Shown: positions 19,844 to 27,343 of the stretch, piece after piece | How the letters are laid out: every line of letters begins with the position of its first letter | Position numbering within the stretch: position 1 is the stretch's first letter | DNA from: an uncultured Enterococcus sp. | GTDB taxonomy: Bacteria > Bacillota > Bacilli > Lactobacillales > Enterococcaceae | Direction of reading: 5' to 3' | NCBI RefSeq assembly: GCF_913775425.1 | Contig: NZ_CAJYIS010000057.1 | Location: 1-64,000, forward strand | DNA: 64,000 nucleotides | Notes under the pieces: model-generated | Told to the model about the DNA's origin: nothing | What the model saw: the letters and a program-made list of their open reading frames with translations, nothing else | Database searches by the model: none | Program-made: the position numbers and the translations under genes

Positions 19844-19988
19844 ATGTTATTTAATTTCAGAGATAGTATATAGGAAGAAAACCTCTTTCTGTTCATATTT
19901 TTTTTAAGAGACTAATTTTATAACGAAGGACGCTTGTTTTAAAATTGATTCTTTTGTGAAGACATAAAAAAAGGAGTAAGCATCTACC

Positions 19989-20017
19989 TTGAAAACAGTT
20001 ATTTTTTATGATAAGAT
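19989..20017 (+). promoter_or_regulatory. Putative sigma-70-type promoter for the P-type ATPase transcript
   Basis: TTGAAA, 17-nt spacer, TAAGAT. Confidence 0.5.
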
Positions 20018-20044
20018 AAACTTAACTTAATAAAACAAAAGGTT

Positions 20045-20109
20045 GAGCGCAAGCTTCAAGACGTAGTCCCCAAGGGTGAGGGGACGGTCTTGTCGTGCGC
20101 TCTTTTTTT
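20045..20109 (+). promoter_or_regulatory. 5'UTR terminator/attenuator-like extended hairpin
   Basis: GAGCGCA [CAAGAC [GTCCCC AAGGGTGA GGGGAC] GTCTTG] TGCGCTC followed by TTTTTTT, just before the ATPase CDS. Confidence 0.75.
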
Positions 20110-20139
20110 GTGTTCAAAGATGAAAGGATGAGGACATAT

Positions 20140-22890
20140 ATGCTGCATTATAAAAAAGAAAAAGAAATGATTTTAGAGGAATTTTCAGTAGATCCAACGA
20201 CCGGATTATCGCAAAAACAAGTACTTAATCAACGTGAACTTTATGGGGAAAATAAATTACCAGAAGAGGCAGAAGATCCATATTGGAAAGTCTTTTTGAA
20301 AAATTTTAAAGAACCGATTGTGATCGTCTTACTTGGTGCGGTCGTATTATCATTTTTAAGCTCTTATTATGCGTTTAATATCCAAAATGATCCAAAACAC
20401 GGTGTGGAAGCTCTCTATGAAGCGATCGCGATCTTGATTTTGATTTTGATTAATGCTTGTTTAGGTTTTTGGCAAGAAATTAGTGCTCGAAAAAGCTTAA
20501 ATGCGTTAAAGGAGATGAATAATCGACAAACAACCGTGTTGCGCGATGGAAACTGGGAGAAAATCTTAGCAAATGAATTAGTAGTAGGAGACATTGTACG
20601 TGCGCAAGTCGGGGATTTCGTTGAGGCCGACGTTCGATGGATCGAGGCGAATGAATTACAAGTCATCGAATCACACCTAACTGGTGAAGCAGATGCGATT
20701 CAAAAGACGACTGAGGTTATTAGTGAAACGGTTGAAGTCGGGGATCGTATCAATATGGGATTTTCAGGGTCGACTGTATCTAACGGCCAAGGTGTCGGAG
20801 TCGTTGTGGGAGTCGGAAAAGATACGGAACTAGGAAATATTGCCCAATTGATCCAATCAGTTGGATCAAAAAAATCTCCACTACAAAATACAGTCAGCCA
20901 ATTGACCAAAACGTTGATGCTGATTTCAGGCGGGATCGTGGTATTAACGTTTATCGTAGGCATCATTCGTGCTGGTGAATTTAGTATCGATTCGATTACT
21001 TCTGTTTTGTCGACATCGATTGCTTTAGCAGTCGCATCGATTCCTGATGCATTGCCTGCTGTTTTGTCGATCGTCTTGACGATCGGTGCTGCGAAAATGG
21101 CGAAAAATAAAGGCCTGATCAAATCACTAACGAGCGTGGAAACATTAGGTGGTACTTCTTATATTTGTTCAGATAAAACTGGAACATTAACAAAAAATGA
21201 AATGACGGTCGTTAAATTTACAGCGAACGGAACTTCTTATGATGTAACGGGTCTAGGCTATGCGCCAAAAGGGTCAATCGAAACTTTAGCAGCACAACCG
21301 ACAAATGCACAACCGTTCTTATATGGAGCTGTTTTATGTAATGAAGCAACAGTGAAAAACGTCGCTGGTGAATACAAACCTTTTGGAAATCCTACTGAAG
21401 TTGCGTTGACTGTTTTGGGACAAAAAGCTGATGTACAAAAAGATGCATTATTGCGCGATCAAACAATCGTGCGTACGTTACCTTTTACAAGTGATCGTAA
21501 GATGATGAGTGTCGTGATAGAAAATCAAGATGGCTACATGTTGTATACGAAAGGTGCACCTGATGTTGTCTTAAATAAAAGCCAAGGTGTGCTGATCGAA
21601 GATGAAATCGATACGTCAGCACAAGCAAAAACAGATTTTAATACCATCGTAGAAGACTATGCAGAGCAAGCGCTACGTACGTTAGCTGTAGCGTATCGTC
21701 CATTAACAAAAGCACAAGCAATGGATGCGAGCGTAGCAGAATTAGAGCAAGAGTTGATTTTAACTGGAGTAGCAGGGATTATCGATCCTGCCCGTGAAGA
21801 AGTCAAAGAATCAATCAAGACCTTACACGAAGCCAATGTAGAAGTCGTGATGATCACAGGTGATCATGAGAAAACAGCACGAGCAATTGCTTACGAATTA
21901 GGCATCGTAAAGGATAAAGAAGCACCAGTTATTAAAGGTGTCGAATTAGAAGAGATGACAGATGAAGAATTGTTTGAAAAAGTCAAATCAACGAATGTTT
22001 ATGCGCGTGTGTCACCTGAACATAAACAACGAATCGTCAAACAATTACAAGCGCATGGTCAAGTCGTTGCGATGACAGGTGATGGGGTCAATGATGCTCC
22101 AGCATTACGTGTAGCAGATATCGGGATCGCAATGGGGATTGCCGGAACCGAAGTAACAAAAGATTCGGCAGATTTAATTTTGTTAGATGATAAATTTACG
22201 ACGATCGAAAAATCCGTCCAAAGTGGTCGAACGATTTATGGAAATATCAAAAACTTTATGCGTCACGAATTAACGACAAATGTCGCTGAAGTTTTATCAT
22301 TATTGATTGGTCTGTTCTTCTTTACGCATACGATTGGAAACGTTCCTGGAACGACGCCTGTACTGACAGCTTTGATGGTCTTGTGGGTCAATATGGTTAG
22401 TGATGCCGTTCCATCATTTTCGTTAGGATATGATGTAGCGGAATCGGATATCATGAAAGAGCAACCACGTGATCCAAAAGAATCAGTATTGGCCAATTAT
22501 ACATGGTCTCGGGTATTGATTCGTGGGACAGTCATGGGACTTGTGGTATTTGCAGCCTTTTATCTAGCCGCAAAAGCTGGAATGTCAGCAAATGAAGCAC
22601 AAACAGTCGCATTCTTGACTCTAGTTTATGGTCAGTTATGGCATGTTTTTGATGCTCGAAGTTCAAAAACGCTATTTAGACGAAATCCATTTGGGAATCC
22701 TCGTTTGATTGCTGCCGTTGCTTTTGCTGCGATTTCTTCATTCCTGGTAACGATTATTCCATTCTTTAATACCGTCATGGGAACAGCGCCATTAACTTTC
22801 CCAATTTATCTTATGGTTATTTTTATTCCAGCCTTACCAACCTTTATCTTATCTGGAATCAAAGAAATGTTTGGCATCAAAATTTGGTAA
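20140..22890 (+). CDS. Cation-translocating P-type ATPase (calcium-type)
   Basis: CSDKTGTLTKNEMTVVKF, TGDGVNDAPAL, VGDFVEADVRW; start chosen at ATG 20140 (track start 20095 lies inside the hairpin region). Confidence 0.93.
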   Translation: MLHYKKEKEMILEEFSVDPTTGLSQKQVLNQRELYGENKLPEEAEDPYWKVFLKNFKEPIVIVLLGAVVLSFLSSYYAFNIQNDPKHGVEALYEAIAILILILINACLGFWQEISARKSLNALKEMNNRQTTVLRDGNWEKILANELVVGDIVRAQVGDFVEADVRWIEANELQVIESHLTGEADAIQKTTEVISETVEVGDRINMGFSGSTVSNGQGVGVVVGVGKDTELGNIAQLIQSVGSKKSPLQNTVSQLTKTLMLISGGIVVLTFIVGIIRAGEFSIDSITSVLSTSIALAVASIPDALPAVLSIVLTIGAAKMAKNKGLIKSLTSVETLGGTSYICSDKTGTLTKNEMTVVKFTANGTSYDVTGLGYAPKGSIETLAAQPTNAQPFLYGAVLCNEATVKNVAGEYKPFGNPTEVALTVLGQKADVQKDALLRDQTIVRTLPFTSDRKMMSVVIENQDGYMLYTKGAPDVVLNKSQGVLIEDEIDTSAQAKTDFNTIVEDYAEQALRTLAVAYRPLTKAQAMDASVAELEQELILTGVAGIIDPAREEVKESIKTLHEANVEVVMITGDHEKTARAIAYELGIVKDKEAPVIKGVELEEMTDEELFEKVKSTNVYARVSPEHKQRIVKQLQAHGQVVAMTGDGVNDAPALRVADIGIAMGIAGTEVTKDSADLILLDDKFTTIEKSVQSGRTIYGNIKNFMRHELTTNVAEVLSLLIGLFFFTHTIGNVPGTTPVLTALMVLWVNMVSDAVPSFSLGYDVAESDIMKEQPRDPKESVLANYTWSRVLIRGTVMGLVVFAAFYLAAKAGMSANEAQTVAFLTLVYGQLWHVFDARSSKTLFRRNPFGNPRLIAAVAFAAISSFLVTIIPFFNTVMGTAPLTFPIYLMVIFIPALPTFILSGIKEMFGIKIW

Positions 22891-22983: not shown

Positions 22984-24318
22984 GTGAAAAACGTTCGTCG
23001 TAAAAAAAGAAAAGCATTCCACTTTTCACCAGCAGAAATTATTACCGGAACCTTTTTAGGATTGATCGTATTAGGAGCGATTCTATTGTCTTTACCTATA
23101 AGTAATCAACAAGAAATCTTAGCACCGATCGATGCATTATTTATTGCAACATCAGCCATTTGTGTTACAGGGTTATCGCCATTATTGATCGACCAACAAT
23201 TTACACTATTTGGGCAAAGTATCTTACTGATACTGATTGAAATCGGTGGCTTAGGATTTATGTCGATTCCGATTTTTATTTATTTTGTTGGTAAAAAACG
23301 GATCCATTTAAGTACGCGTCTTATTTTACGTGAGTCCATGAATATGGAGAGTCGTTCCGGAGAAGTGAAATTAGCTTTAGCTATTTTAAAAATCGCCGGA
23401 AGTATCCAGTTTTTAGGAATTGTATTATTGGCTACCCGTTTTGTTCCAAAATATGGAATCAAGACCGGGTTGTGGTATAGTTTATTTCATGCGATTTCAA
23501 GTTTTTGTAATGCGGGATTTGATTTGTTTGGGACGAGTTTGATCGGCTTTAAAGCAGACCCAATCGTGTTATTGACCATCGGCTTTTTGATTATCGCAGG
23601 AGGCTTGGGCTTTTTAGTTTGGCTAGATATCTTACAGTGGCCACGTAAAAAACTAAGTTTACATAGTCATTTAGCACTGAGAATGACTGGCTTTTTACTC
23701 ATTTTAGGATGGGGGTTGTTTTACGTGATCCAACCTGAAAAAAATGGTTGGATCAGAGCATTAGATGCGTTCTTCTTAAGTGTGACACCACGTACAGCAG
23801 GATTTTTCACGTTAGATTATGCAACGATGGCGCAATCGGGGTTGATGTTGACGATGATGCTGATGTTCATTGGTGGAACATCGGGTTCAACTGCAGGTGG
23901 ATTGAAAACTACGACCTTAGCTGTGTTATTTGCTAAAGTGCGTTCGCTGTTTCGCGGACGTACGCGCACGGAGATTTCAGGACGTACGATTAGAGAATTA
24001 GCAGTTGCTAAAGCGATGACGCTTTTCTTTTTAGGACTTGCAATCTGTACCTTTAGTATCTTTTTGTTGACGTTTACTGAAACAGCTTCTCAAGAAACGA
24101 TCGTAGCCCTAGCCTTTGAAGCGATCTCCGCCTTTGGAACAGTGGGATTGACTATGGGGATCACGGCTGATTTGAGTGTAGTGGGTAAATTGATCATTAT
24201 CAGTTTAATGTTTATTGGTCGAGTTGGAATTTTAACGATTTTGTATTCACTCTCTAGAAAAACCTATCAACAAGAAGTAAAAATCAAGTATCCAGAAGAA
24301 TCCGTTTTATTAGGCTAG
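22984..24318 (+). CDS. TrkH/KtrB family potassium transporter membrane subunit
   Basis: Pore-loop motifs SAICVTGLSPL, SSFCNAGFDLFG, TPRTAGFFTLD; GTG start. Confidence 0.92.
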   Translation: MKNVRRKKRKAFHFSPAEIITGTFLGLIVLGAILLSLPISNQQEILAPIDALFIATSAICVTGLSPLLIDQQFTLFGQSILLILIEIGGLGFMSIPIFIYFVGKKRIHLSTRLILRESMNMESRSGEVKLALAILKIAGSIQFLGIVLLATRFVPKYGIKTGLWYSLFHAISSFCNAGFDLFGTSLIGFKADPIVLLTIGFLIIAGGLGFLVWLDILQWPRKKLSLHSHLALRMTGFLLILGWGLFYVIQPEKNGWIRALDAFFLSVTPRTAGFFTLDYATMAQSGLMLTMMLMFIGGTSGSTAGGLKTTTLAVLFAKVRSLFRGRTRTEISGRTIRELAVAKAMTLFFLGLAICTFSIFLLTFTETASQETIVALAFEAISAFGTVGLTMGITADLSVVGKLIIISLMFIGRVGILTILYSLSRKTYQQEVKIKYPEESVLLG

Positions 24319-24775: not shown

Positions 24776-27343
24776 ATGAGGACTAAAAAAATTTGGATTT
24801 TTTTTATTTCAGTATTTAGTGCTATTTTATTTATAAATAGTTCAACAACGTCTGCTCATGCAGCAGCGAAGCCGTTAGGTCAGTTTTATGGTGGAGATAA
24901 TATCGATTTAGGTGTTTACATAAAAACAAAACAATTTAAATTCTATACGTGGACGATATGTGGGGACCATAGCTTGATGCCACCAGACGACGATAGAAGT
25001 TATCCAGTAACGTATGATCAGTATGATCTGTATGAGGGGATCTCGCAATTTAAAAATCGTAAAAATTCTGGCCCAGAATTATTTAAATCTAAAGATAAGA
25101 TTGTTGCTTCTTGGTTTGCGTTAAGTTTAGATAGCGATGTATTAATGGATTACTATAGAGATAGTTTTTTTGGTGGTAAAACACCGAATGACGTGGAAAA
25201 AAGTTCGTTTGAAACATATAAAAAAATACAACCTTATTTTAGTCAGGGGAAAGAAGAAAACTTTATCTATAATTCTGCTCAGAGTATCTCTTGGGCATAT
25301 ACTAATCCAGGTAGGGTTACTTTTGGTCAATATTATAAAAAAACGCCGTACAGTCAAAAGGCCTATGATTTTAGTAAATCATTCCCGATTCCTGAAGAGA
25401 CTGCTCGCGGATTGAATATAAGAATTGTTGATCAATCAGGTGCAGAAGTCAATAATCAAAATCCTCTAAAGGTAGATTCATCAACTCTTCTTACGGATCC
25501 TTTTCAGTTAACAGGTACCACTAAAGAATATCCAGTTCGAGCAGATCTAACGGGGATGCCTTATACAATTATTGATGCTTCAGGAAAAACGTTAAAAAAT
25601 TATGCTTCTACTGCAGATAAAGCAAGTGGTAAAATCTACAATTATCTTTTACCAGGTCAAGAATACCGAGTAAAAGTCAATGTAGGAACAAATCTACAAA
25701 GTATTCCTAATTTAAATCTGAGTTATCTACGATTAAAAGAAGCCTATTATTATTTGCCAGTAGCTTATAGCGATGGGAACTATAATGACTTTCAACATAT
25801 GTTAGGGTGGAAAATTGAAAAAGTAGATCTATCGATTCTTTTCAAAGTTGAAGTTAAAGAAACACAAGTCGAAGGCGAGAAAAAATGGCAGGATTACAAT
25901 AATAAATTTAATACTCGACCAGATAAAATTACCATCAATTTATTAAAAGATGGTCAGGTTTATAAACAGCAAGAAGTCAGTAAAGAAACCAATTGGAAGT
26001 ATCAATTTGAGCACTTGCCACTTGGTCCTACCTATACGATCACAGAAGAACCTGTTACAGGTTATACGCCAACGATCGTCGGAAACGATATTACGAATAC
26101 CTATGTGAATACAGAAAAAATTAATAAAACTGGACACAAAATTTGGGAGGATTTAGACAATCAGTACAATACACGTCCAGATCATTTGACGTTTGTGTTG
26201 TATCAAAATGACAAAGCAATCGATCGTCAAACAGTAAAACCGGATGCATCTGGAAATTGGAGTTATGCCTTTAATGATTTGCCTAAATATGATGAAAATG
26301 GCGACGAATATAAATATAGAGTCAGTGAAGTTCAAGTAGGTGGGTATAGTACATCTACAAAAACGGATGCGAATGGTGTTAACTTTGTCAATAAACTTAG
26401 ATTAACGGATGTAACTGGTGAGAAAAAATGGAATGATTTAAATAATCAGTACCAACTTCGTCCGGAAAAAATTATAGTTCGGTTGTATCAGAATGATAAA
26501 GAATTTGCTCATCAAGAAGTCAGTTCGCAAACGAATTGGACGTATCATTTCTCAAATCTTCCATTACAAGATAAAAGCGGGAAAAACTATACGTATACCG
26601 TAAACGAAGATCAAGTTTCAGGTTATGAAGCCGTAATCGATGGAACGACAATCACAAATAATCTATTACTGACTGTGATTAAGGGTGAGAAAAAATGGGA
26701 TGACCAAAATAATGCTGCAAATCTCCGACCGACACAAATTGTAGTTGAATTATTACAAAATGGTACGAAAATTAAAGAACAAATCGTCAAAGCAGATAGT
26801 AATGGCAGCTGGTCTTATACCTTCGATAATTTATTAAAACAAGATCAAAATGGGAAAGATTATGTGTATACCGTAAATGAACAAAAAGTTCCTTATTATA
26901 CAACAACAATTGATGGAACAAAGATTACAAATACATTGAAATTGACGGAAATAAAAGGCGAAAAACACTGGATTGATAGCGATAATCAAGCAGGAATGCG
27001 ACCAAAAGAAATCACGATTTGGCTAGTTCGTGAGGGAAAACGGCTTGAAAAGCAAGTGATCCGAGCAGGAAATAATGGGAAATGGACTTATGGGTTTATC
27101 AATCTTCCAATAAATGACGAAAATGGAAAAACCTACACGTATACTATAGAAGAAGAACCTGTAGATAATTATACAACTGCAATTGATGGGACAACGATTA
27201 TCAATACATTTAAATCAAATGGTGTGTTACCGGATACTGGCGGACGTTATAAACAATCGATGATCTATGTAGGACTTGCAATCGTTATTGTTGCAGTTAT
27301 TAGTGGTATTATTTATGTGGTGAAATCTCGTAAAGAATGGTAA
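24776..27343 (+). CDS. LPXTG-anchored surface protein, thioester-domain-like N-terminus and five Cna_B-type repeats
   Basis: Signal peptide; five repeats starting GEKKWQDYNN/GHKIWEDLDN/GEKKWNDLNN/GEKKWDDQNN/GEKHWIDSDN; C-terminal LPDTGG, TM, KSRKEW. Confidence 0.9.
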   Translation: MRTKKIWIFFISVFSAILFINSSTTSAHAAAKPLGQFYGGDNIDLGVYIKTKQFKFYTWTICGDHSLMPPDDDRSYPVTYDQYDLYEGISQFKNRKNSGPELFKSKDKIVASWFALSLDSDVLMDYYRDSFFGGKTPNDVEKSSFETYKKIQPYFSQGKEENFIYNSAQSISWAYTNPGRVTFGQYYKKTPYSQKAYDFSKSFPIPEETARGLNIRIVDQSGAEVNNQNPLKVDSSTLLTDPFQLTGTTKEYPVRADLTGMPYTIIDASGKTLKNYASTADKASGKIYNYLLPGQEYRVKVNVGTNLQSIPNLNLSYLRLKEAYYYLPVAYSDGNYNDFQHMLGWKIEKVDLSILFKVEVKETQVEGEKKWQDYNNKFNTRPDKITINLLKDGQVYKQQEVSKETNWKYQFEHLPLGPTYTITEEPVTGYTPTIVGNDITNTYVNTEKINKTGHKIWEDLDNQYNTRPDHLTFVLYQNDKAIDRQTVKPDASGNWSYAFNDLPKYDENGDEYKYRVSEVQVGGYSTSTKTDANGVNFVNKLRLTDVTGEKKWNDLNNQYQLRPEKIIVRLYQNDKEFAHQEVSSQTNWTYHFSNLPLQDKSGKNYTYTVNEDQVSGYEAVIDGTTITNNLLLTVIKGEKKWDDQNNAANLRPTQIVVELLQNGTKIKEQIVKADSNGSWSYTFDNLLKQDQNGKDYVYTVNEQKVPYYTTTIDGTKITNTLKLTEIKGEKHWIDSDNQAGMRPKEITIWLVREGKRLEKQVIRAGNNGKWTYGFINLPINDENGKTYTYTIEEEPVDNYTTAIDGTTIINTFKSNGVLPDTGGRYKQSMIYVGLAIVIVAVISGIIYVVKSRKEW

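Follow-up and report, generated by a model that had tools for sequence, protein, structure and literature searches.

The leader hairpin of an enterococcal P-type cation ATPase gene is very probably a Na+-I riboswitch

The closest described relatives of the element reported here are RNAs of the Na+-I (DUF1646) riboswitch class. The "53 mgtA" RNA of L. garvieae Lg2 binds Na+ with a KD of about 15 mM, as determined by in-line probing, the "66 kefB" RNA of C. acetobutylicum supports Na+-dependent read-through, and no tested member of the class accepts alkaline earth ions (White et al. 2022, PMC9337991). The same authors suggest that "K+" and "Mg2+" transporters linked to Na+ riboswitches could be Na+ transporters, and they allow for variants of the class with altered ligands (PMC9337991). 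Beyond that study, a literature search returned no paper on the ATPase described here under Na+ riboswitch control.

Within a window of Enterococcus DNA (the whole stretch analysed, 64 kb in length), a hairpin lies between a promoter-like site and the start of a gene for a cation-pumping P-type ATPase. We conclude with high confidence that this hairpin belongs to the Na+-I (DUF1646) riboswitches and works as an ON switch on transcription of the ATPase gene, and we infer that the RNA of the window itself responds to Na+. The element adds an instance to an established class, in which an L. garvieae RNA, apparently from the same gene family, has already been tested. The features of the locus are as follows.

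19989..20017, + strand: promoter-like site of the sigma-70 type, TTGAAA-N17-TAAGAT with an extended -10 TG (sequence, consensus scan)
20041..20085, + strand: probable Na+-I riboswitch aptamer, RF03071 (Rfam cmscan, 40.5 bits, full model 1-55)
20043..20059, + strand: aptamer helix P1, UUGAGC[GCAA]GCU-U-CAA, with a GNRA-type GCAA tetraloop (Rfam alignment, 23 homologs)
20066..20085, + strand: aptamer helix P2, GUCCCC-AAGGGUGA-GGGGAC, with the conserved loop AGGGUGA (covariation, 23 homologs)
20045..20109, + strand: predicted intrinsic terminator, with outer stem 20045-20051/20096-20102, inner stem 20057-20062/20087-20092, P2 inside and the T7 run 20103-20109 (minimum-energy fold)
20123..20133, + strand: putative ribosome-binding region AAAGGATGAGG (sequence)
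20140..22890, + strand: the regulated gene, a P2-type cation ATPase of 916 aa with PDALP in TM4 (Pfam Cation_ATPase_N / E1-E2_ATPase / Cation_ATPase_C)
22984..24318, + strand: TrkH-type K+ uptake protein, the next gene, possibly co-regulated (TIGR00933 above cut-off)

A preliminary description of this DNA had named the promoter, the stacked hairpin, the T7 run and the ATPase start, all of which proved correct base for base; the stems stand as named there, but the element begins four bases earlier, with GGTT from 20041. The promoter hexamers TTGAAA (19989-19994) and TAAGAT (20012-20017) are separated by a 17-nt spacer, with TG before the -10 hexamer, and this 9/12 consensus match is suggestive only, five sites having been found against 1.7 expected. 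From 20041 the sequence reads GGTTGAGCGCAAGCTTCAAGACGTAGTCCCCAAGGGTGAGGGGACGGTCTTGTCGTGCGCTC, followed by the T7 run and the ATPase ATG at 20140. The hairpin stacks an outer stem (GAGCGCA, 20045-20051, with TGCGCTC, 20096-20102), an inner stem (CAAGAC, 20057-20062, with GTCTTG, 20087-20092) and an apical stem (GTCCCC, 20066-20071, with GGGGAC, 20080-20085) around the loop AAGGGTGA at 20072-20079. The 72 nt from 20041 to 20112 have a minimum free energy of -32.1 kcal/mol, compared with -20.1 +/- 2.7 in dinucleotide shuffles (z -4.5), and none of 200 shuffles matched this stability. A rule-based scan reported no terminator at the leader, which is not contrary evidence, as its loop and stem limits are unsuited to an interrupted hairpin.

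RF03071 was the sole Rfam family to reach its gathering score in the window (Rfam 15), with an E value of 6.2e-5 over the whole window and 3.4e-7 over the local stretch. Its score of 40.5 bits equals the gathering score exactly, and independent support was therefore sought from orthologs. Several features that mark membership of RF03071 were found: P1 and P2 with the conserved blocks GGUUG, UUCAAGA and the loop AGGGUGA; linkage to Na+ or cation transport genes, namely the P-type ATPase and, at a second copy, a CPA2 Na+/H+ exchanger; and mutual exclusivity of aptamer and terminator, predicted from sequence in 23 of 23 homologs. The conserved GA at 20060-20061 lies directly 3' of P1, and the P1 bulge has one base in the window RNA and in the L. 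garvieae ortholog, compared with two in the RF03071 consensus. Earlier, the hairpin had been taken for an attenuator of an unassigned or different class, a reading overturned by the RF03071 match at gathering score, so that a supposed orphan attenuator is removed and the Na+-I class gains an instance. The Mn2+ riboswitch yybP-ykoY also occurs before P-type cation ATPases, and its earlier dismissal holds. The conserved pieces GGUUG, UUCAAGA and AGGGUGA, which had gone unrecognised, are the aptamer. No yybP-ykoY match was found at gathering score in the window, nor at E up to 1 in 19850-20200, where this permissive threshold yielded, besides RF03071, only chance microRNA or sRNA matches.

The element lies shortly 5' of the start codon in all 12 named full-length ATPase orthologs (from E. 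sulfureus, at 93% protein identity, E. hermanniensis, E. devriesei, four Lactococcus, Companilactobacillus, three Ligilactobacillus and a Lactobacillus bin), and every full-length ortholog examined, down to about 69% identity, is preceded by it. A protein search across 398 genomes of the order returned further ATPase orthologs bearing the element. The alignment of ortholog leaders that the preliminary description had proposed shows covariation in P2 and conservation of the AGGGUGA loop, and the hairpin structure is conserved in all 23 homologs aligned. In P2, two-sided changes occur in four of the six pairs, with 95-96% of cells paired; there are 23 two-sided cells compared with 6.5 in shuffles, a value reached by none of 500 shuffles, and sliding the P2 partners lowers pairing from 95% to 42-63%. 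P1 is almost invariant, so its covariation is little informative.

Decisive support comes from the L. garvieae ortholog, because the "53 mgtA" RNA of strain Lg2 binds Na+ (PMC9337991). In strain EP01 (L006), an ATPase 76% identical to that of the window is preceded by the same element, with like aptamer blocks, one-base P1 bulge and terminator topology. The comparison used EP01 whereas the tested RNA is from Lg2, and we infer that the two loci are the same; as far as this can be checked, through the EP01 ATPase, the gene family is shared. The L. garvieae RNA differs from that of the window in its species and in its P2 and linker sequences, and of the two it is the L. garvieae RNA for which Na+ binding is known. 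The EP01 element (L006:879-923) scores 33.1 bits in Rfam, below the gathering score of 40.5, which shows that the RF03071 cut-off is conservative and misses true members, and that the 40.5 bits of the window are not weak. The alignment of model R1 includes the window element, whose 75-bit score there is not independent evidence. An ortholog-based model recovered both copies in the source genome, and RF03071 matches were found in at least 103 of the 106 genomes of the family, the counts of the Rfam-based whole-genome search being lower bounds, as its first-look filter omitted the window element.

These data also bear on whether the RNA might be a variant of the DUF1646 fold that has shifted to another cation (for example Ca2+, Mg2+ or Mn2+), in keeping with the annotation of the ATPase. 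Such a shift is compatible with the RF03071 score lying only at the cut-off, with the Ca2+/Mg2+-type name of the downstream gene and with the specificity changes that White et al. allow for (PMC9337991), yet we consider it very unlikely: the blocks required for Na+ binding, the P1 base and the GG of the P2 loop, vary little or not at all among the 23 homologs, an L. garvieae RNA of the class binds Na+ while an L. garvieae ATPase ortholog carries the same element, and the second element of the genome precedes a Na+/H+ exchanger. Less probable still is that the hairpin simply ends the sbcCD transcript and that the ATPase promoter follows it, an alternative of a kind that the preliminary description had raised. 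The hairpin does share its strand with sbcC, at a distance of 200 nt from that gene, and is shaped as a strong terminator, but the promoter-like site is 5' of it, with none found between hairpin and start codon, and a simple terminator has no need of aptamer blocks or their covariation; sbcC neighbours the ATPase in this genus alone, but the element tracks the ATPase across families and stays with it where sbcC was not found alongside, which leaves no room for a mere sbcC terminator. Protein-bound hairpin attenuators occur in Bacillota, but a protein-responsive attenuator or ribosome-mediated leader is the least probable reading of all, as the conserved blocks are those of a class that binds Na+ directly and the 100-nt leader contains no recognisable leader peptide.

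As a Na+-I riboswitch, the leader would have to choose between two folds of unequal strength. The aptamer, P1 plus P2, has a predicted energy of -16.0 kcal/mol, much weaker than the terminator at -32.1 kcal/mol, which requires switching to be kinetic. In all 23 homologs, the predicted terminator of the minimum-energy fold consumes both P1 strands and retains P2 as its tip. Both aptamer helices are fully transcribed by about 20085, ahead of the downstream strands at 20087-20102. During transcription, P1 and then P2 would fold first. At high Na+, the conserved P1 base would be held to the P2 loop, P1 would persist, and polymerase would read into the ATPase gene; as the terminator requires both P1 strands, a Na+-held P1 would block it and leave the gene ON. 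At low Na+, P1 would open, its 5' strand GAGC and the loop GCA would pair with UGCGCUC, and the conserved CAAGA(C) would pair with GUCUUG, giving a long terminator tipped by P2 that would stop transcription within the U7 run and release a short RNA of some 80-85 nt. Once expressed, the pump would reduce cytoplasmic Na+, probably aided by TrkH, the K+ importer encoded next to it. The conditional terminator and cation-responsive attenuator earlier placed between promoter and ATPase is supported in kind by this model.

Like the window RNA, the kefB RNA combines an aptamer of the same class with an ON switch acting through an intrinsic terminator. According to the published text, however, the kefB terminator forms at the expense of P2, whereas that of the window keeps P2 and loses P1, and kefB controls a napA-like antiporter rather than a P-type ATPase. 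The P1-competing form is thus predicted to be a small difference in expression platform from the published case.

The ATPase contains all domains of a P2-type cation ATPase and is annotated as calcium or magnesium type. It misses the Ca2+ NCBIfam cut-offs (TIGR01522, 587 against 798 bits; TIGR01116, 572 against 703; TIGR01517, 489 against 507) and falls below those for Na/K, fungal Na+ and Mg2+ ATPases. Its best solved relative is the Listeria Ca2+-ATPase LMCA1 (lmo0841; E 6.8e-161), which reads PEALS, NLGA and NLVND in TM4, TM5 and TM6, compared with PDALP, NVAEV and NMVSD in the window ATPase. The TM4 glutamate of PEGL or PEAL is absent from every member of the clade to which the window ATPase belongs, all of which carry PDALP or PDAMP, whereas PE is found in 14 of 14 P2-type ATPases from outside the clade in this order. 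NVAEV in TM5 and NM(V/I)SD in TM6 are the further motifs of the clade, with NLVTD, NLVND and NVVAD in TM6 among other ATPases.

Of the 35 tree rows that make up the clade, 29 carry the Na+-I element and six do not, and six of the 29 (L066 and five of a more distant branch) have weaker model scores, of 24-53 bits. No element was found before the 14 P2-type ATPases from outside the clade, and the same result was obtained for two LMCA1-like genes from this order (L087, L088), so that among the ATPases compared the riboswitch occurs only in the PD clade. As this is a single clade with full support (100/100), it represents one evolutionary association, not many independent ones. The riboswitch marks a distinct clade of P-type ATPases, probably misnamed, in which D replaces the glutamate at the cation site of Ca2+ pumps. 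Its presence before a "calcium" pump raises the prospect that the protein in fact exports Na+. The presence of PDALP or PDAMP where related Ca2+-type pumps have PE makes a Na+ exporter plausible, and the chances that the window ATPase is one appear about even. We would give similarly balanced weight to the broader proposal that the riboswitch-marked clade (Enterococcus, Lactococcus, lactobacilli) is an overlooked bacterial family of P-type primary Na+ exporters that carry Ca2+ or Mg2+ pump annotations, and that its riboswitches have P1-competing terminators rather than the published P2-competing kind. If true, a primary Na+ pump would be under direct Na+ control, which would bear on how enterococci and lactic acid bacteria tolerate salt.

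The second Na+-I element of the genome lies on another contig (C82:2105-2177, - strand; L001), scores 41.6 bits in Rfam, is located 5' of a NapA-type CPA2 Na+/H+ exchanger, and shows the same P1-competing terminator layout as at the ATPase. In Ligilactobacillus, a Na+/H+ antiporter adjoins the ATPase and each gene has its own Na+-I element (L010, 425 and 1776; L011 and L013, 2541 and 3894). Another genome of the same genus (G001; L016, L018, L019, L020) contains four Na+-I matches, two of them before paralogous copies of the ATPase. Among the loci compared, TrkH lies directly 3' of the ATPase in this genus only. Downstream of TrkH and a 65-aa membrane protein, the window encodes a large surface protein (24776-27343) with five Cna_B domains and an LPDTG sorting signal.
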